Below are positions 5,560 to 33,833 of a stretch of 33,833 bases of DNA, piece by piece (position 1 is the stretch's first letter; each line of letters begins with the position of its first letter). The notes beneath the pieces were generated by a model. That model saw only the letters and a program-made list of their open reading frames with translations. It searched no databases and was not told the DNA's origin. Origin of the DNA: a virus; IMG/VR virus record IMGVR_UViG_3300008111_000139, positions 1 through 33,833 of that record; one strand, given 5' to 3'. Made by a program: the position numbers and the translations under genes.

Positions 5560-6825
5560 ATGGAAAAATCAGTAACTGACGAAGGAGTTCCCAGTGAACT
5601 CGACCTTGGTAATGTTGAAACCCCTAGCACCGAAGATTTAAATAGCTTGGATAAAGCGCTAGACGCAGCAGGCGTTTTTAATCAAGATGACTCAGTTCAA
5701 CCTACCGCAGATGAAACCACGCCGACACAGCCCGAAGATCCTGCGCAACCCGATGAAAGTCAAGCGACTCCTGACAACCAACCGGCAGATGGACAACCTG
5801 CGGACCAAAAAGACAGTCAGAAAACTGAAGATCCGTCGAATCTCGATCTCGATAAAATCCAGCCGCCTGCCGATATTAGTCCAAGGAATCTTGTCAACTT
5901 TAATAAGCTACGCGAAGTCGCTAAGCATTATAAAGAACAAGCGGAAGCAATCCCGAAATACGAGCAATACATCGAGCATCTTAAAAACCAAGTTTCGCAA
6001 CCTCCGCAAGAGTTATTAGCCGAACTAGAAGATCATCGCCGATTCCGCAAAATTTTCGATGCCGAAAACGATCCTGAATTCCAAAAGCAGTTTAACGAGC
6101 GCATTACTACGTTAGATTCGGATGTTCTCGGTATCCTTAAAAAGAATGGATTGCCTGAAGAGACTGAGAATAAACTCAAATCTCTTGGTTTAGATAAAAT
6201 TCCGGCGTCGTGGTGGGAAGAAAGCATACTTCCAAAATTAAATTTCTTAGAACGCGAACGCGTCCAGAAAAAACTTGCCGAGCGCGCGGATGTCGTCGAC
6301 GCCAAGCACAAAGAAATAGAAAAGTTCAGTTCACGTAAAGAAGAATTTTTTGCCGAACAACAGCAGAAAATGCAGCAGTTCTACGAGCAAGAACAGAATA
6401 CAATCCACACGCATCTTGATGAAATGACTAAAGAGCTTCCGCAAGCTCGCTACATGGAAATTCCAAGAAATGCAACTCCAGATCAAGTTGCGCAGATACA
6501 GAACCACAACAATACCGTGGCAGAAATGGAAAATCATTTTCAAGAAGCTTTAAATGCGCGCGATCCGCAAGCTCGGACTGAAGTTGCCATGGCCGCGGTA
6601 GCAAGTATTTACTTCGCGAAAGAAATCGAGCATCTTCAATCTCAACTCCAAACAGCAACTAGTCAATCCGCTAAATTTGCTAAAGAACTTGAAGCCATTC
6701 GAGCAGCAGGCCGCGCTCCCGCTCCAAGAAACGGCATGCGTAAAGCTAGCGACGTATTTGATCCGATGAAACTATCCGACGAAGATGCTATCGAACAAGG
6801 TCTTTTAGCCGCTGAAGGAGTTTAA
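5560..6825 (+). CDS. Putative head scaffolding protein
   Basis: This 421-aa protein has the build of a phage scaffold: an acidic, disordered N-terminus rich in Asp, Glu, Pro, Gln and Thr (to about residue 95), then a long Glu/Lys/Gln helical and coiled-coil region (about 110-380) and a short C-terminal segment with NGMRKASDVFDPMKLSDED. It would direct coat-protein assembly inside the prohead and then leave. It lies between portal and coat genes, as expected, though a sugar cassette separates it from the coat gene. ATG 5560 follows an A/T-rich leader (AAAATAAT) with no Shine-Dalgarno. I see no protease motif. The call rests on composition and position, not on a sequence motif. Confidence 0.7.
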   Translation: MEKSVTDEGVPSELDLGNVETPSTEDLNSLDKALDAAGVFNQDDSVQPTADETTPTQPEDPAQPDESQATPDNQPADGQPADQKDSQKTEDPSNLDLDKIQPPADISPRNLVNFNKLREVAKHYKEQAEAIPKYEQYIEHLKNQVSQPPQELLAELEDHRRFRKIFDAENDPEFQKQFNERITTLDSDVLGILKKNGLPEETENKLKSLGLDKIPASWWEESILPKLNFLERERVQKKLAERADVVDAKHKEIEKFSSRKEEFFAEQQQKMQQFYEQEQNTIHTHLDEMTKELPQARYMEIPRNATPDQVAQIQNHNNTVAEMENHFQEALNARDPQARTEVAMAAVASIYFAKEIEHLQSQLQTATSQSAKFAKELEAIRAAGRAPAPRNGMRKASDVFDPMKLSDEDAIEQGLLAAEGV

Positions 6826-7598
6826 TGAGACAACCTAGAAAAAAGAAAGAACAACTTGTAGAAAGTTGCTCCGCTGAATGGCTTGGCCGCGACTTATTTG
6901 TCGGGTTTCCTTGCTATAAGCAAACTAATCCGGTAACGGCTTGGTGTTTATTGGCAATGGCTCTTGATATCGGCAAAGATAAAATTCGTTTCGACATGGA
7001 AATTGGCGATGCGATGATTTATCATGCGCGTAATAATCTTGCCGCAAAGTTCCTCAAGACAGAAGCAAAATGGCTTTTGTTTATTGACGATGATATGATA
7101 TTGCCAATTGGCCGTCCACAATTCATGCGCCAGATGTGCAGATTGCCAAACGATTATCCTGATTCAGCACTAGCACTTGATACAATCCATAGATTGATAG
7201 GGCACGATAAGCCAATTGTCGGTGCTACATATTTTGGCCGCCACAAGGATGGCCGTGCTATAAATAGTTTGCATAATGATTCCGAATACCGAGAGCGCGT
7301 AAATTCTTTCACGGATTCTGTCATGCCATGCAACTGGTTAGGAACTGGGTGCATGCTTATAAAGCGCGAAGTTTTTGAGACGATGATGATTCAGTTTCCT
7401 GATTTAGCACCTGGAAATGACGAATTGCCGTGGAACTTTTTTCAACCCGATACTGACGGCGCAGGAGAGGATATTGCGTTTTGCCGCAGAGCTCGCGAGT
7501 GCGGTTTCCAACCGTACGTTGATACAAAACTACAGGCTATCCACGTAGGTTACGGAACATACGGCGTTCACACGTCAAACTTGAGTAAGATACTGTGA
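6825..7598 (+). CDS. GT-A-fold glycosyltransferase
   Basis: This 257-aa enzyme is predicted to transfer a sugar from a nucleotide-sugar donor. The metal-binding DxD is FIDDDM (D88-D90), preceded by a Rossmann-like start (LFVGFPCY, 24-31). GTGCMLIKREVF near 172-183 and GEDIAFCRRARE near 212-223 match the acceptor/catalytic acid region of family 2-like transferases. ATG 6825 overlaps the scaffold stop by one base (TAATG) and has GAAGGAG at 6814-6820, so it is coupled to head genes. There is no membrane segment, so it acts in the cytoplasm, perhaps on a phage or host surface component. It is the first of four sugar-related genes. Donor and acceptor are unknown. Confidence 0.85.
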   Translation: MRQPRKKKEQLVESCSAEWLGRDLFVGFPCYKQTNPVTAWCLLAMALDIGKDKIRFDMEIGDAMIYHARNNLAAKFLKTEAKWLLFIDDDMILPIGRPQFMRQMCRLPNDYPDSALALDTIHRLIGHDKPIVGATYFGRHKDGRAINSLHNDSEYRERVNSFTDSVMPCNWLGTGCMLIKREVFETMMIQFPDLAPGNDELPWNFFQPDTDGAGEDIAFCRRARECGFQPYVDTKLQAIHVGYGTYGVHTSNLSKIL

Positions 7599-8239
7599 AA
7601 ATTATTCACGGTAATGTTGCCGTCATAGACGGCGACACGCACATCTCAAAATGGGTTGAGGAATCTGGACGACTTGACCATGATCAGTACGCATTGCCGA
7701 TAATTCTTGAGCATATAAAACCTGGCGATACCGTTATTGATGCAGGCGCTTTTATTGGCGACCACACGATTGCGTATTTGAATAGAGTTGGAAAAACTGG
7801 CCATGTTTACGCATTCGAACCTAACAAAGAGGCATTTGATTGTTTATGCCACAATTGTCCTGGCGCGCTCGTATTTAACGCCGGTATATCTGACAAAGAA
7901 GAAACGTTATCCTACGAAACTAACCCAAATGCCGGCGCTAGTAGAATAAAGTTATCGGGAAAAACAAAAATTCAAACCGTATTGTTAGATTCACTGAAAA
8001 TCCAAAACGTCAAGTTTATAAAAATCGATGTCGAAGGATTTGAGTTGAATGCTTTACGCGGCGCGCTAAAAACAGTCCAAGAGTTTAAACCAACTATGTG
8101 GATTGAAATAAACCGAGGCGCGCTTGAAGCTAACGGTACAAGTCCATACGAAGTCGAAAGTTTTTTAGAAAAACTAGGCTATAAAATAACACCGTTTCCA
8201 GAAAAAGGCGAGCAATATGACATCCTCTGTAAAAGTTGA
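7595..8239 (+). CDS. FkbM-family SAM-dependent methyltransferase
   Basis: This 214-aa protein carries the SAM-binding motif VIDAGAFIGDHT (47-58), the acidic loop AFEPN (73-77) and the FkbM hallmark IKIDVEGFEL (142-151). FkbM enzymes typically O-methylate sugars or polyketides, so here it may cap a glycan made by its neighbours. It starts with GTG at 7595 in a GTGA overlap with the glycosyltransferase, and its 3' end overlaps the next gene by 23 bases, so the cassette is translated as a unit. There is no signal peptide. The family call is strong; the substrate is unknown. Confidence 0.9.
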   Translation: MKIIHGNVAVIDGDTHISKWVEESGRLDHDQYALPIILEHIKPGDTVIDAGAFIGDHTIAYLNRVGKTGHVYAFEPNKEAFDCLCHNCPGALVFNAGISDKEETLSYETNPNAGASRIKLSGKTKIQTVLLDSLKIQNVKFIKIDVEGFELNALRGALKTVQEFKPTMWIEINRGALEANGTSPYEVESFLEKLGYKITPFPEKGEQYDILCKS

Positions 8240-8942
8240 CATCTTTATCCGTTCATACAAAAATGACTTTGAGTGGTTAAAATATTGTTTAAGAAGCATA
8301 AAGAAATTCTGCAAAGGATTTAATGATGTCCATGTTGCAGTGCCAAATGAAGACGTTTCTGCATTGGATTTTTTAGACGGAGAAATTGCCCATGGAGTTT
8401 GTGATAAGTGCGAAGGGTATTTAGCTCAACAAGTGACAAAGATGTATGCAGATAATTTCTGCAATGCGGATTATATCTTGCACGTCGACAGCGATTGTAT
8501 ATTTTTTAAAGAAACACATCCTGAAGATTTTTTCGAGCACGAAAAACCTATAGTTCTATACGACGAAAATGTGATGGCGGTCTGCCCAATTTATTCGACA
8601 ATAAGACCGACTCCTTGGCCAGAAATTGCAAAACTAACTCTTGGTTGGTTTGATGAAAAAGAATACATGCGGAGACTTCCAATAATTTATCCTCGTTGGA
8701 TTTATCCTGAGTTTAGAAAATTCGTTCAACAAGTTCAAAAGCACGATCTGGAAACATGGATATGTGCTCAACCATACAGGCAGTTCAGCGAATTCAATAC
8801 ACTTGGCCAATGGGCAAACAGATTCCACAACGACAAATTCACATGGCTAAAATCAGGAGAAAAAGAAACATGCGCAACACAGCATTGGTCGTGGGGCGGA
8901 GTTGAACAACACATGCAAAAAATAGAACAAATACTAAAATGA
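8217..8942 (+). CDS. DUF6492-like glycosyltransferase-type protein
   Basis: This 241-aa protein opens with a glycosyltransferase A-like strand (VDIFIRSYKNDFEWLKYCL, 7-25) and has a DxD-type motif in LHVDSDCIFF (D91, D93). The N-terminal pattern resembles the DUF6492 family as I recall it. A late, Trp- and His-rich segment (QHWSWGGVEQH) may line the active site. It overlaps the FkbM gene by 23 bases and the next gene by an ATGA, so all four cassette genes are coupled. The gene looks more A/T-rich than the head genes around it, which fits separate acquisition. Substrate unknown. Confidence 0.7.
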   Translation: MTSSVKVDIFIRSYKNDFEWLKYCLRSIKKFCKGFNDVHVAVPNEDVSALDFLDGEIAHGVCDKCEGYLAQQVTKMYADNFCNADYILHVDSDCIFFKETHPEDFFEHEKPIVLYDENVMAVCPIYSTIRPTPWPEIAKLTLGWFDEKEYMRRLPIIYPRWIYPEFRKFVQQVQKHDLETWICAQPYRQFSEFNTLGQWANRFHNDKFTWLKSGEKETCATQHWSWGGVEQHMQKIEQILK

Positions 8943-9649
8943 AAACATTCCTATACGCACTGCAAGTTTACAATGAAGAAATACCACAAGCCATAAAGAT
9001 AGCGAGATTGCTTGCTGACATGGCAGGAGATCAGCACTTCGATCATGCGGATTGCTGTGTCGTTTACCGTCGAGATTGCCCAGAAAGTAAAAAGTTAGAA
9101 AACATACTCGCAGAAAGTTTTGAAACAGTGCACATTCATAGGTCTTCACGTCGTGAGGTTGGCTTTCCTGGTGGGTCTAACGGAGTTTGGTGCGATCTTG
9201 TCGACCACGTAGCGAATCAACACTCGAAGAAAAAATGGAATTACAAATTTGTTTTAACTACGGAAGTCGATGCCTTGCCGATTGCTAAAGATTGGCAAGA
9301 AAAGTTAATCGCCGAATGGGATAAGGAATACGCGGTCGTGGGTTGCTGGCACAATAACGGAGAGCATGAGGTTGGGCATATTAATGGTAACGCTATGTTT
9401 CACCCAATGATTTCTAGAATGCATAGTAAATTTATTGGATGCTCAGAAAATCGGGCTTGGGATACGTGGTTTGCCGACGAGTTTGAAAAACTAGGTTGGA
9501 AAAAATCCAAAGCCATTCAAAATCTTTATCGCAAAAAAGAACTTTCCGAAAAAGAATTTGACCATCTCGTAAAGTCCGGTTGCGTTTGGTTGCACGGGGT
9601 AAAAGACGACACGGCTATAAATTTAGTTAAGAATAAAATTATAACCTAA
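8939..9649 (+). CDS. Putative glycosyltransferase, last gene of the sugar cassette
   Basis: This 236-aa protein resembles family 2-type transferases in layout: an N-terminal strand with YNEE (11-14), a likely metal site in TTEVDALP (107-114, Glu-Val-Asp where DxD is usual) and GHINGNAMF (146-154), which matches the acceptor-binding segment of such enzymes. It starts in an ATGA overlap with the previous gene. No membrane segment is seen. The altered DxD means activity is less certain than for the first cassette enzyme. It could also be a binding-only paralogue. It ends 222 bases before the coat gene. Confidence 0.6.
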   Translation: MKTFLYALQVYNEEIPQAIKIARLLADMAGDQHFDHADCCVVYRRDCPESKKLENILAESFETVHIHRSSRREVGFPGGSNGVWCDLVDHVANQHSKKKWNYKFVLTTEVDALPIAKDWQEKLIAEWDKEYAVVGCWHNNGEHEVGHINGNAMFHPMISRMHSKFIGCSENRAWDTWFADEFEKLGWKKSKAIQNLYRKKELSEKEFDHLVKSGCVWLHGVKDDTAINLVKNKIIT

Positions 9650-28361: not shown

Positions 28362-29120
28362 ATGGGAGGAGGAACGCCAAAAGTAAAAACAGATCCAGGG
28401 AACCCGCTTCTAGCCCCGACTATGATTTCTGGGTTAGGTTTAGGAACGGGTATTCTTGAGTCGTCTATTAAGATGTCGCCAGAAATGCGGGCACAAAAAG
28501 TCGACGCACTTCAAAAATCTGCAGCCCGAGAATCCGAAATAAATGCTCTTAAATCGCGCGGTCTTGAAGAACGGATGGATCCGCGTTTAGCTGAAATACG
28601 AAAAGGATTGACCAGGCAAACAGCAGAAGATCTTGAAGGAGGTCCAAGTAAAGAACTTTCCAATATGTGGCTCAAACAGGGATTGGCCGATGTCATATCG
28701 ACGGGCGCTAATCTCCGGTCTGGATTTGCCCGCTCTGCGCTTGCGGATAAGACCCGCGAAGATTATTATATGAACCGGGCATTAGCCCAGGACCGCGCTG
28801 CCCGTCATTTGGCGGCAAATCCAATGGCAATGGTTGGATTAGATCCTGGCGCAATTGCCAGTTATGAGACGCAGATGGCTGCTGAAAACGCAAATGCGCG
28901 AGATGCTTATAAAACAAGAAATTTGGGATTGATGTCAAACAACGCCGAAAACATCATGGGCGGTTTTCAACAGTTTGCTCAAATGGACGCGCAAAGGAGA
29001 TCTCAAAATCTTCAAGCAAAAAATGCGGCGGCCGCTGCCGGAGAAGGAAATAAAACGGCGCTTATGGGAGCAGGAATTGGTGCCGCCGGCGCTTTGGCTG
29101 GCGCAGCTATTATTTTCTAA
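28362..29120 (+). CDS. Putative internal virion / DNA-ejection protein
   Basis: This 252-aa protein starts MGGGTPKV and ends in a small-residue hydrophobic stretch (ALMGAGIGAAGALAGAAIIF, 233-252) that could insert into membrane. The middle is helical with many Arg/Ala/Glu (RGLEERMDPRLAEIRKGL). This resembles T7 gp14- or P22-type ejection proteins in composition, which leave the virion to form a channel. ATG 28362 has GGAG at 28351-28354, seven bases upstream. The MGG start is shared with two other genes nearby (29975 and 30338). Assignment is by composition and place. Confidence 0.6.
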   Translation: MGGGTPKVKTDPGNPLLAPTMISGLGLGTGILESSIKMSPEMRAQKVDALQKSAARESEINALKSRGLEERMDPRLAEIRKGLTRQTAEDLEGGPSKELSNMWLKQGLADVISTGANLRSGFARSALADKTREDYYMNRALAQDRAARHLAANPMAMVGLDPGAIASYETQMAAENANARDAYKTRNLGLMSNNAENIMGGFQQFAQMDAQRRSQNLQAKNAAAAAGEGNKTALMGAGIGAAGALAGAAIIF

Positions 29121-29921: not shown

Positions 29922-29974
29922 AGCAAAAAAAGGACTTTCTACAAAATAACAACAAACCAGAAAGAAATAAAAAT

Positions 29975-30304
29975 ATGGGAGGAGCAGCATCAGCGGGAGC
30001 CGGAGCCGCGTCATCAGCCGCCGCGTCATCGGCAACTTCGGCCGCAACACAACAAGCAACACAGCAAGCCGCACAGCAATTAGCACAACGGCAAGCTCTT
30101 GCTTCAGGAGTCACGGACGCGTTTAGCAAGTTTGGAGACGCGTATGCTAACCAAAAAACTGGATATTCTCCTGAAATGAATAAACCAGTCTTTGCGAATT
30201 ATAAGTATAACTTTGGGTCGGGCGTTACGTCGGACGCAGATCTTCGCAATGGCGGAATGTACTCGGGAACTAATTTTTCGAATCCCGCACGACGCGGGTT
30301 TTGA
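29975..30304 (+). CDS. Small Ala/Ser/Gln-rich virion protein
   Basis: I chose ATG 29975, because the upstream in-frame TTG 29903 would lie within the previous gene. The product has 109 residues, begins MGGAASAGAG with long Ala/Ser and Ala/Gln runs, then FSKFGDAYANQ and ends FSNPARRGF. The MGG start and the terminal Asn-Pro-Ala-Arg-Arg-Gly recall the neighbours. The composition is that of an ejection-type or internal virion protein that may be helical and membrane-active. No enzymatic motif is present. Confidence 0.6.
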   Translation: MGGAASAGAGAASSAAASSATSAATQQATQQAAQQLAQRQALASGVTDAFSKFGDAYANQKTGYSPEMNKPVFANYKYNFGSGVTSDADLRNGGMYSGTNFSNPARRGF

Positions 30305-30323: not shown

Positions 30324-30331
30324 AAGGAGGA
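30324..30331 (+). promoter_or_regulatory. Strong Shine-Dalgarno (AAGGAGGA) before ATG 30338
   Basis: AAGGAGGA ends seven bases before ATG 30338. This is the best ribosome binding site in the window and contrasts with the A/T-rich leaders of scaffold, coat and fibre genes. It fixes the start of the 153-aa gene and shows that the host ribosome uses anti-SD pairing at least here. Confidence 0.85.
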
Positions 30332-30337
30332 AATAAT

Positions 30338-30799
30338 ATGGGTGGAGGACGTCGTCGTAGTAGTAGTAGCAGTAAACCTGCTCCAGACAACTCAATGCAG
30401 ATTTGGGCTGCAGAAATGGACAAACAACGTCAAATGCAACAAAAGCAATATGACGATATGATTAAGCAATACGAAAAGCAAAAAGCCGACGAGGATGCGA
30501 GAATTGCCGCCGATAATGCTAAGCGCGAACAAGCATTATGGGATGAAAAACAAATGGCTAAAGACGCGGATGCTTTACAAAAATATAAAACAGAAACCGA
30601 AACTTTTGCGCAGCAAGCAGGAGGCGCGCCAGAAGATAGCACAATTGCCGATTCGACAACTTCTGCAATGAACAAAAAAATTGGCGACCAGTCTAAATCT
30701 TCACTTCCAGCGCCAGGTTTAACGCCGTTCGGAACAGCCATTGTCAAACCAGCCAACATGATTTACCAAACATCTGGCGCTCGTATGGGAGGACTATAA
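30338..30799 (+). CDS. Virion protein with coiled coil and conserved C-terminal signature
   Basis: This 153-aa protein begins MGGGRRRSSSSSK and has a Gln/Lys/Glu/Ala coiled coil (about 25-90). Residues 131-153 follow the pattern F-G-x2-I-x-K-x-A-N-x2-Y-x4-A-R-x-G-G-L, shared in exact register with the C-terminus of the next gene's product. The last codons (ATG GGA GGA) also make GGGAGGA, which is the ribosome binding site of the next gene seven bases downstream. I recognise no known family. The position and composition suggest an ejected or internal virion protein. Confidence 0.7.
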   Translation: MGGGRRRSSSSSKPAPDNSMQIWAAEMDKQRQMQQKQYDDMIKQYEKQKADEDARIAADNAKREQALWDEKQMAKDADALQKYKTETETFAQQAGGAPEDSTIADSTTSAMNKKIGDQSKSSLPAPGLTPFGTAIVKPANMIYQTSGARMGGL

Positions 30800-30800
30800 T

Positions 30801-31583
30801 ATGGAAAATACTCCCGATAACGGAATGGAAGAAATTTTCAAAGAAATTGAAAATTCCGGAAGATCCACGGACAATATTGTCGGGCACTTAACGGCCGGCG
30901 AAATTGTCATTCCTACTAGTTTAGCCGAAATCCCGGAAATTAAAGCTACTATCGAGGAGGTTTTCGCTTCTTATGGCGTGGATATTAACGAATTTACCGT
31001 CGGTAATGAAGCAAATAAAATAAATCCGACGACGGGTTATCCGGAATTCTTCTTTGGTAAAGTATTTAAAGCCGTTAAAAACTTTTTTTCTCCGCCAAAA
31101 AAAGAAGAGCCTAAACCACAACCGCGACCGCAATCACAACCGCAACAACAGCCGCAAAACAAACCGGCTACGCCTTCTGGAGGAACCCCGGCTCAGGCTA
31201 ATAAACAAATTGCGGATGATCAAGCCGCGCGGACGGCAGCCGCTTCCGAAGACGCGCGTAAAAAAGCAGAGCAAACGCGATTTGAGCAAGTTAGTAAAGC
31301 CGAAGGTGAAAAACGACGCAAAGAATACGAGTCAAAGGCCGGTTCTGCAGCTACAAAAGTCACTGGCGGAGAAACGTTTCTTAAGAAAGAAAAAGGTGCG
31401 GACACAGGAGTAGCAAGAACCACTAGACCCGCCGCGGTAAGTGTTATGTCTCCGGCAACAGTCCAAAATACAATATTAGGATTGCCGGCAAACTCTCAGG
31501 TGTTTACGAAGTTCGGCGAGTCTATTAATAAGGCTGCCAATTTGACTTATTCAAATCCGCAAGCCCGAGTTGGAGGAATGTAA
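30801..31583 (+). CDS. Virion protein with HLTAGE module, Pro/Gln linker and conserved C-terminal signature
   Basis: This is a 260-aa protein. Residues about 20-83 hold GRSTDNIVGHLTAGEIVIP and INPTTGYPEFF, a module I have seen in phage tail/ejection-region proteins (pattern Asp-x-x-x-x-His-Leu-Thr-x-Gly-Glu-x-x-x-Pro). A Pro/Gln-rich linker (about 98-130) and a basic, Ala-rich coiled coil follow. Residues 238-260 match the C-terminal signature of the previous product (F-G ... A-N ... Y ... A-R-x-G-G-M). The terminal GGA GGA codons make GGAGGA (31572-31577), nine bases before the next start. Role inferred as internal virion. Confidence 0.7.
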   Translation: MENTPDNGMEEIFKEIENSGRSTDNIVGHLTAGEIVIPTSLAEIPEIKATIEEVFASYGVDINEFTVGNEANKINPTTGYPEFFFGKVFKAVKNFFSPPKKEEPKPQPRPQSQPQQQPQNKPATPSGGTPAQANKQIADDQAARTAAASEDARKKAEQTRFEQVSKAEGEKRRKEYESKAGSAATKVTGGETFLKKEKGADTGVARTTRPAAVSVMSPATVQNTILGLPANSQVFTKFGESINKAANLTYSNPQARVGGM

Positions 31584-31586
31584 GTT

Positions 31587-32930
31587 ATGCAAACAGGAGG
31601 ATTTCAGTTTAACGCCCCGGCGGCAGCAAGACTTGAAAACGTTCAAGGTCCAAGTTTTGGATTTGCGAGCGGCGAAAGTCTTGTCGCTGACCCGGGAATC
31701 GACTTGTGGTTAAAAGGCCAACAACAAGCATCTGAAAATCTCTTGTCAGGCATTACCATTGGCGTTAAAGGCGTAACCGAAGGCATATCTGAAAGATTCA
31801 AGCAAGAACACGAAAAAGAACTATTAAAAGAAAAAGCCGCGCTAGAGGAAGAGGAAGATCTCAACAAGTTTTTACAAAATGTCTATCTCGCCGACTTAAA
31901 GTCCGAAGACAACGTACTCAAAGATACGCTAACGCAACTCCAAATAGACAAAGAACGGCGCGAACAAGCTGCGGCAAATTACTACAGTCCTTTACCGCCA
32001 GAAGCTTTGCCTACCGAAACTACACCATTAGGCGATGTAGATGCTTCACTATTTCCGCAAGATATTCCATCTGACAGCAAATTTGGATTCGGTTTTACAG
32101 AAAAACCTGGAAAAGGAGTCGAACAATTTTCGTACGACAATCGACAATCGGGAGCGCCTGCAAGTGCCGCACCATTGGCGCGATCCAAACCACCATCGCC
32201 ATTTGTAGAAATGCCTATAGAAGGAACAAGCAAAGTTATACTCGTGGATCGGATAACTGGCAAACGTGTAGGTGATCCTTACGAGAAAAGTGATTCTCCT
32301 TTAGGCGCAGTAAACATACCCGAGGGATCCGAAATTACGTCGCAAACTTATAAAACTCCAACTGGAACCGTAACGGTAAAGCCAAAAGGCGAAGGGAGAC
32401 CGGTAACTGACACTTTTGTGACAAGAATGGCTCAGTATGACGAGTTAGGCGCATCGCTGGAAGATATTAAGGCTCAGATGAAAAATGTGACCCGCGGACC
32501 GTTATTTGGTATTTTTAAGGAAAAAAATCCTTACGACGTCGCGGCGCAAAGACTCAATAAACTTGTTGAAAGCATTGTCCCAGGATTAGCTAGATCCGTC
32601 TTTGGCGAAGTTGGCGTTTTAACAAATGAAGACGTGGCGCGCTACAAATCGATGGTGCCGAATGTAAGAACAGAGCAGGAGCTTGCTGATGGTTTAATGG
32701 CGCAACTTGAAAAGAAACTTGAGTCTTCAAGAAGCAAATATTTAGAGTCGGCCAAAAACGGCGGTTACGACGTTTCCGGATACTTCAAAGCCATAGAAGC
32801 AAAAAACAGTTTGCAAGACCAAATTAACGAACTTGACCGGAAAATCGAGAAAGTAGATCCTGCTTCAAAAGAGTATTCAGAGTTGTATAAAAAATTAGAA
32901 GAACTGATAATTCAGCAACAAGGCAAATAA
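31587..32930 (+). CDS. Internal virion / ejection-like structural protein
   Basis: This 447-aa protein has a helical N-terminal region with a Glu/Lys coiled coil (about 60-110), a Pro/Ser/Thr-rich central part (to about 200), a small beta-like insert with VILVDRITGKRVGDPY and a C-terminal helical domain (about 275-447) that ends in a coiled coil (ELDRKIEKVDPASKEYSEL). No enzymatic motif is recognised. Its size and location before another long, helical gene fit ejection proteins of short-tailed phages. The ribosome binding site GGAGGA (31572-31577) lies in the end of the previous gene. Confidence 0.65.
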   Translation: MQTGGFQFNAPAAARLENVQGPSFGFASGESLVADPGIDLWLKGQQQASENLLSGITIGVKGVTEGISERFKQEHEKELLKEKAALEEEEDLNKFLQNVYLADLKSEDNVLKDTLTQLQIDKERREQAAANYYSPLPPEALPTETTPLGDVDASLFPQDIPSDSKFGFGFTEKPGKGVEQFSYDNRQSGAPASAAPLARSKPPSPFVEMPIEGTSKVILVDRITGKRVGDPYEKSDSPLGAVNIPEGSEITSQTYKTPTGTVTVKPKGEGRPVTDTFVTRMAQYDELGASLEDIKAQMKNVTRGPLFGIFKEKNPYDVAAQRLNKLVESIVPGLARSVFGEVGVLTNEDVARYKSMVPNVRTEQELADGLMAQLEKKLESSRSKYLESAKNGGYDVSGYFKAIEAKNSLQDQINELDRKIEKVDPASKEYSELYKKLEELIIQQQGK

Positions 32931-32935
32931 GAATA

Positions 32936-33833
32936 ATGTCCGCTTCTGAAGAAATCCGAAAACGTCTGAGAGAAGGAGGCCAACAGCCTCCTTCGTCAGT
33001 TAGTGCATCCGAACAAATACGCGAAAAACTGAAATCTAAAGTTCCGACTTCAGAAATCATACGCCGCAAAAAAGACAAAGATCCCGATTCGCTATACGAA
33101 CGTTACAATGAAGGCGACCCAGAACTCGATCAAGAGCAATTAAAAATTGTATTTGAAAAACAGCGAGAACAACCTTTAGTAGACCAAGCTACTGAAGTTG
33201 CTACGAATTTTCTTCCTAGGGTGGCCGAAATGGCGGTAGATACCGGAATAGGACTTGGTAAATTTACGAAAGAAGCCGCCGTCGATCAAGTCGTAGCAAA
33301 TCCTGCCGGAGCACTATCAGATATCGTGGGTTTGCCTGTTGACGCAGCATCCGAAGTAATCAATAAAGTTTCTACGGCGTTAGGCGGAGAACGTCTTTAT
33401 GCTACACAATTCGGTCCAGGCGCAAATATTCCTACTGCCGGTAGTAAGTTCTTGCATCCTTGGGATAGAAACGCGCAACAAGTTAAAGAAGCGGCGGATG
33501 CTGAACTTGCTCTACGTTCTGTAGCTTCTGGTATGGCTAATGATCTAGAGGAAACCGCTGGATCCGCCACTAAATTTTACAACTTCGGAAGTTCCTTTAC
33601 CGACCGAGTTCAAGAAGCTTTAGGTACAAAGACCGAAAAAGAATCCTTTAAAGACTTCGTAGATCGGACTTACATGACGCGCGAAGCCGCGGCAAAAGCT
33701 AATGAAAATCCGGATCGCGCGGCAGCGCTATTAGCTGAAAACCCGCTAGTTCGACCGATTATAGCCACAACTTCGGCATTGCAGGGCGTTGAACTGACTC
33801 CAGAACAACTAGACGTTGCGCAAGAAGATTACC
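32936..33833 (+). CDS. Large virion/ejection protein, N-terminal part (3' end outside window)
   Basis: ATG 32936 opens a frame that stays open to the window end (299 residues seen). The N-terminus carries three short repeats of the type Ser-Glu-x-Ile-Arg-x-x-(Leu/Lys): SASEEIRKRL, SASEQIREKL and TSEIIRRKK. A hydrophobic and Gly-containing helical region follows (about 90-135, with FLPRVAEMAVDTGIGLG). The rest is Ala/Glu helical, ending near LENP-like AENPLVRPIIATTSALQG. No lysozyme or other catalytic motif has appeared by the cut. The large helical, repeat-started design resembles very long ejection proteins of short-tailed phages. Confident as coding, weak on role. Confidence 0.6.
   Translation, partial: MSASEEIRKRLREGGQQPPSSVSASEQIREKLKSKVPTSEIIRRKKDKDPDSLYERYNEGDPELDQEQLKIVFEKQREQPLVDQATEVATNFLPRVAEMAVDTGIGLGKFTKEAAVDQVVANPAGALSDIVGLPVDAASEVINKVSTALGGERLYATQFGPGANIPTAGSKFLHPWDRNAQQVKEAADAELALRSVASGMANDLEETAGSATKFYNFGSSFTDRVQEALGTKTEKESFKDFVDRTYMTREAAAKANENPDRAAALLAENPLVRPIIATTSALQGVELTPEQLDVAQEDY

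Follow-up and report, generated by a model that had tools for sequence, protein, structure and literature searches.

The window considered here, meaning the whole stretch of 33,833 nucleotides that was analysed, is a virus record, and it can be called a phage because it carries a terminase-like gene, which has weak matches to five phage records. Two adjacent genes encode protein A (153 aa; 30338..30799, plus strand), for which a long helix (residues 18-94), a linker and a 27-residue tail are predicted, and protein B (260 aa; 30801..31583, plus strand), which consists of an N-terminal module, a Pro/Gln linker, a charged stretch and a 27-residue tail. Upstream of them lie a gene called tail fibre from its PHROG matches, the gene of a 252-aa protein (28362..29120, plus strand), a PAPS-reductase-like gene and the gene of protein C (109 aa; 29975..30304, plus strand), which has an Ala-rich body and an end, ..SGTNFSNPARRGF, that is kept in relatives. 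The 252-aa protein has a hydrophobic C-terminus and an MGGG start as in A, and it is helical in a low-confidence model (mean pLDDT of 46.7, too poor for fold comparison). Downstream of B, the gene of a 447-aa protein (31587..32930, plus strand) is followed by that of a 3874-aa protein with GNAT domains and an HExxH motif. Only the start of the latter lies in the window (32936..33833, plus strand); the gene is complete in a 48-kb IMG/VR contig (G001), whose A, B, 252-aa and 447-aa proteins do not differ from those of the window.

The portal, nozzle, adaptor, capsid and scaffold of this phage are names given from position and size, and the position-named structural genes tried in family searches had no convincing family. 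The position of A and B among late structural and internal genes is a feature of internal and ejection virion proteins. This position suggests the label "virion-type", which the earlier note gave to A and B, and the two are probably small internal or ejection-type virion proteins. The late-gene position and the very large protein downstream are both shared with podophage ejection and cargo genes, such as those of T7 gp14/15/16, N4 gp50/51/52 and the crAss cargo proteins (PMC8954989, PMC10172136, PMC12633501; PMC13320782 is a further paper on precedents). In contrast to these families, A, B, C, the 252-aa protein and the 447-aa protein had no family match at a curated cut-off or with a convincing E-value. 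The weak matches linked A to phrog_3394 (E 0.0065), C to phrog_26308 (E 0.021) and phrog_458 (E 0.068), and the 447-aa protein to two PHROGs (E 0.034 and 0.068) and to a Pfam hairpin below the family cut-off (E 0.0022). No match was obtained when A and B were compared with phage records by tblastn, and profile scans of genome contigs with the 252-aa and 447-aa proteins returned no relative. In a sequence search of the PDB, the best matches were likewise weak (A, E 1.9; charged stretch of B, E 0.03, Par; 252-aa protein, E 0.32). Proteins of this small, internal kind change too quickly for homology to give them names.

The feature that sets A and B apart is their common C-terminus. The tail of A (GLTPFG...GARMGGL; 30716..30796, plus strand) and that of B (VFTKFGESINKAAN...ARVGGM; 31500..31580, plus strand) were followed by pattern scan, profile comparison, shuffling and codon comparison. 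The open reading frames and the shared signature are as the earlier note had described them: over the last 23 residues, 11 of 23 are identical without a gap, and the BLOSUM62 score of 56 was reached by none of 200,000 shuffles (shuffle maximum of 41). The next-best of the 465 end-anchored pairs of window proteins scored 23, and the highest score elsewhere in the 10,192 windows of 23 residues taken from 32 window proteins was 22 for the tail of A and 25 for that of B. The window holds two copies of the tail in its IUPAC form, whereas none of 100 shuffles has one. When 2.9 million viral contigs were scanned with this form, nine matches were reported on five contigs, all of the same lineage and all in A and B; a tenth copy of the tail lies in 3300036985_009087 (L036), close to the point at which the stretch returned for that contig ends. 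A profile of six tails, compared with 5,861 open frames of the window and 29 loci, gave 16 hits at 62-67 bits, all of them A or B and including its own training sequences and duplicates, and nothing besides A and B above 6.5 bits. Thus, the tail is a true C-terminal module on two tandem proteins and is lineage-restricted within the collections searched. The earlier note had proposed looking for the pattern on unrelated phage proteins; in these searches, A and B of one lineage were its only carriers. The profile rules out the tail in other genes of the window and the 29 loci, and the contig scan, with its single lineage, rules out a wide phage tag.

The five contigs with the A/B region represent three genome types: 3300005527 (type 1, the window type), 3300044530 and 3300043539 (type 2), and 3300037493 and 3300036985 (type 3, in which A and B are identical between 3300036985_009087 and 3300037493_007244). 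The A proteins of the relatives are 61-69% identical to that of the window and the B proteins 44-48%, and both tails are present in all three types. A scan of viral contigs with an A-family profile returned the same five contigs and no others. Relatives of the portal-position gene were found in 21 records, and B matched nothing in 19 of them. This does not show that B is absent there: G009, G016, G017, G018, G020 and G021, which were read whole, stop 5' of the A/B region or have nothing homologous to the window past it, and most of the other records are shorter than 15 kb. As a separate observation, the 447-aa-type gene of 3300036985_009087 is 84% identical overall to that of the window and, by eye, window-like beyond approximately 60 residues, a switch that looks like a recombination point just behind B.

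Conservation is distributed differently in the two proteins. In B, 20 of the 27 tail columns are identical, compared with 34 of the 128 columns of the body that have no gap (Fisher P 5.5e-6; a further 127 body columns carry gaps), and among 256 windows with 27 columns each, the tail ranks first. The tail of A is not clearly above the body of A (18 of 27 columns against 63 of 126, P 0.086), and 28 of 141 windows are equally good. Codon comparison of the window with each other type gave 12-13 synonymous and 4-6 non-synonymous changes among 27 tail codons, which points to selection on the protein. Between the other two types the excess is smaller or missing: in B, 8 changes are synonymous and 5 are not, and in A, which here tells against such selection, there are 7 of each. 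Overall, both tails are kept at the protein level in the three genome types. The N-terminal half of B is different in each of them. Its LTAGEIVIP...INPTTGYPEFF module (30801-31100) was present in the window type only among the loci searched and is missing from the other two types; used alone as a query, it gave six records with a best E of 0.1. Modules similar to it occur in other phage proteins, although this search did not find them. The tails of relatives are thus conserved beyond the GGAGGA letters, contrary to what the earlier note had named as a refutation, while the front half of B has been exchanged.

The earlier note had also seen a weaker version of the tail in protein C, with FSKFG inside and a related end, and this claim held up poorly. 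Relatives have not retained the FSKFG, and when its region was compared with the tail of B, 22, 256 and 251 of 1000 shuffles did as well, one count for each genome type; a second copy of the tail at this place is rejected on the loss in relatives and on shuffle counts of up to 256 of 1000. The end of C, with FSNPxxR, resembles the tail of B, but profile comparison by hhalign gave P 0.084 over 8 columns, and a second hhalign comparison of C gave P 0.33. This end is more conserved than the body of C (7 of 11 columns against 23 of 95, P 0.011). Its score was reached by 99, 8 and 184 of 1000 shuffles against B and by 344, 38 and 11 against A. The relation of C to the tails is therefore a hint at most, weak and inconsistent between relatives. 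In L033, the Ala-rich part of the relative of C weakly matches a PHROG called DNA ejection (E 0.0029).

The reading that we favour, at a probability of about one half and built on three genome types, is that the tail is a docking peptide that tethers A and B to one virion ring. The last ~27 residues of each protein would fold upon binding to the same conserved ring-shaped partner, for which the nozzle, the adaptor, the portal or the inner core are candidates, and the helical or flexible bodies would reach into the channel or the head. Both tails may go back to a single ancestral sequence that was copied in a tandem duplication or passed on by tail transfer. Selection would preserve this part even as related phages exchange the front half of B, and GGAGG in the Gly-Gly codons would also serve the next gene as its ribosome-binding site, presumably supporting strong expression. 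In an AlphaFold2 model of A based on a six-sequence alignment, the helix at residues 18-94 is confident (means of 73-95 for the blocks from residue 21 to 90), and residues 132-153 have a pLDDT below 50. Low confidence after a confident helix fits a peptide that is ordered only on its partner, and it may also stem from the thin alignment; conservation combined with a predicted lack of structure in isolation would be expected of a docking peptide. Of the roles proposed earlier, targeting is partly supported: a targeting or docking role would fit tails that are kept while the front half of B changes. A tail that stays with an exchanged body offers a handle on the part that binds the particle.

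The closest parallel in the way of working is T7 gp7.3. In the excerpts of PMC11784390, the modelled part of gp7.3 in the T7 virion is the C-terminal loop (residues 84-98 of 99), six copies of which are anchored on the nozzle, and density surrounding the DNA is assigned to the front of the protein, which is not resolved. Relatives of gp7.3 match it mostly through the C-terminal half: among the best 40 of 668 records, 29 matches start at residue 47 or later (seven of the 40 are T7 itself, and many have E-values of up to 0.9), and the conserved end is visible in five chosen relatives. Like A and B, gp7.3 is a small protein. Its C-terminal end is conserved above a drifting body, a contrast that is clear in B and weak in A, and this end has, by eye, Ala-Arg, Gly-rich and hydrophobic elements in the same order as in A and B. 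However, an hhalign comparison of six A/B rows with six gp7.3 rows gave P 0.15 over one column, that is, no detectable homology. The front of gp7.3 is Lys-rich, whereas the body of A is near neutral (net charge of -1, +1 and +1 in the three types), and A and B lack the Lys clusters of gp7.3; the bodies of B have net charges of -1, +9 and +8, so two of the three are mildly basic. The gp7.3 gene adjoins gene 8 or lies one gene away, whereas A and B form a tandem pair 5' of the 447-aa and 3874-aa genes. gp7.3 is thus a parallel in mode of action and not a family to which A and B belong. The A/B tail would then be unusual but of a known kind, probably acting as the C-terminal loop of gp7.3 does on the nozzle.

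Second in rank is a pure packaging tag, in which a capsid-targeting signal brings cargo into the head at assembly and has no lasting docking role. In the excerpted account of T4 (PMC9026906), the capsid targeting sequence is one short peptide on IPI, IPII and IPIII, whose bodies vary among relatives, and the A/B tail is similarly a short peptide common to different proteins, with an exchanged front half in B. According to the same source, however, the T4 signal is N-terminal, about 10 residues long and processed, whereas the A/B tail is C-terminal, about 27 residues long and limited to one lineage. Moreover, two carriers, without a wider cargo set, were found in the window and 29 loci. We regard a C-terminal counterpart of the T4 signal as an unlikely explanation. 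A broader form of the idea, which we regard as rather doubtful, joins docking to translation: the C-terminal cargo tag would carry its own ribosome-binding site, such that genes ending in the docking tail and GGAGG could take up new bodies in tandem, with strong translation and delivery to one virion site. The front half of B, directly behind the tail of A, would be one such slot. Among the open-access papers listed in literature searches, none describes a C-terminal virion tag like the A/B tail, judging by titles and the openings of abstracts. If the tail is truly a recruitment signal, short-tailed phages would have a way of taking up proteins by their C-termini.

A and B might instead be plain tandem paralogues, that is, whole-protein duplicates with diverged bodies in which the tail is merely the slowest-changing part and has no function of its own. 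The two genes adjoin, their layout is alike by eye (charged stretch, linker, tail), and the tail of A is no more conserved than other blocks of A. BLASTP of A against B gave a match over 115 residues (E 1e-7 for a single pair), and tblastn within their own record gave E 6.7e-4. With the tails removed, the score of the bodies was reached by 29, 25 and 73 of 1000 plain shuffles in the three types, which is a small fraction, but by 249, 87 and 383 of 1000 shuffles that keep the local composition. In the profile comparison by hhalign, only the last 27 residues align (P 2.4e-6), and the N-terminal half of B differs in all three types. The tail is taken as the common part because the profile alignment is confined to it and the bodies fall within the shuffles of kept local composition. 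The earlier description of the two proteins as otherwise unlike and not simple paralogues is supported by the profiles and weakened by the BLASTP match, whose length keeps an older whole-protein paralogy as a candidate. As a full explanation, we consider it improbable.

The shared end could also be driven by translation, with selection acting on the embedded ribosome-binding and start-stop signals rather than on the peptide. The Gly-Gly codons of A (GGAGGA; 30788..30793, plus strand) and of B (GGAGGA; 31572..31577, plus strand) form Shine-Dalgarno-like sites for B and for the 447-aa gene, with 8 and 10 nt, respectively, between GGAGG and the next ATG. GGAGG lies in these codons at 8-10 nt from the next ATG in six of six junctions of the three genome types, as expected from the earlier claim that they serve the following gene. 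GGA followed by GGR in six of six tails would have a probability of 1.7e-4 if the tails were independent, which they are not. Among the 32 listed window genes, GGAGG occurs within 18 nt upstream of A, B and the 447-aa gene only; one further gene (6825) has AGGAG, and a core of at least four bases is present in eight of the 32, the foregoing included. The site upstream of A is an intergenic AGGAGGA (30325..30331, plus strand), of which AGGAGG is kept in both other genome types. The double use of Gly-Gly, as protein and as predicted ribosome-binding site, is real and uncommon in this genome. Nevertheless, it accounts for two of the 27 residues, in agreement with the earlier remark that the site covers Gly-Gly and not the rest. 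Without this pair, the tails still score 44, a value beyond all of 200,000 shuffles, and at the remaining positions the codons change synonymously but the residues stay, so a purely translational origin is very unlikely. Removal of the tail by a protease at head maturation, for which there is the general precedent of cleaved T4 propeptides in the excerpts of PMC9026906, is similarly remote; no cleavage site or protease came to light in the comparisons made here.

Several observations concern other genes. In the 447-aa protein, residues 270-398 have a relative at 31% identity, the last domain of a 960-aa protein in a phage contig (L083:2652-9747) whose late genes, like those of L082, are open only with TGA read as a residue. 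A 1396-aa protein comes next, and no A/B-like neighbour was seen by eye upstream of this domain in L083. The complete gene of the 3874-aa protein (L066) has two GNAT regions and HExxH at 781, as well as eight [FY]MP motifs compared with 0.3 expected; seven of them lie beyond residue 2680, placed as if they were inter-domain linkers. Four consecutive genes 5' of the capsid-position gene (6825-9649) resemble, by eye and by motifs, what we take to be glycosyltransferases and an FkbM-type methyltransferase. Finally, the slot 5' of C, which holds no gene in the window (29922-29974), is occupied by an 80-aa Lys-rich gene in one of the other types (L033:6764-7006) and by a different 95-aa gene in another (L034:6679-6966).
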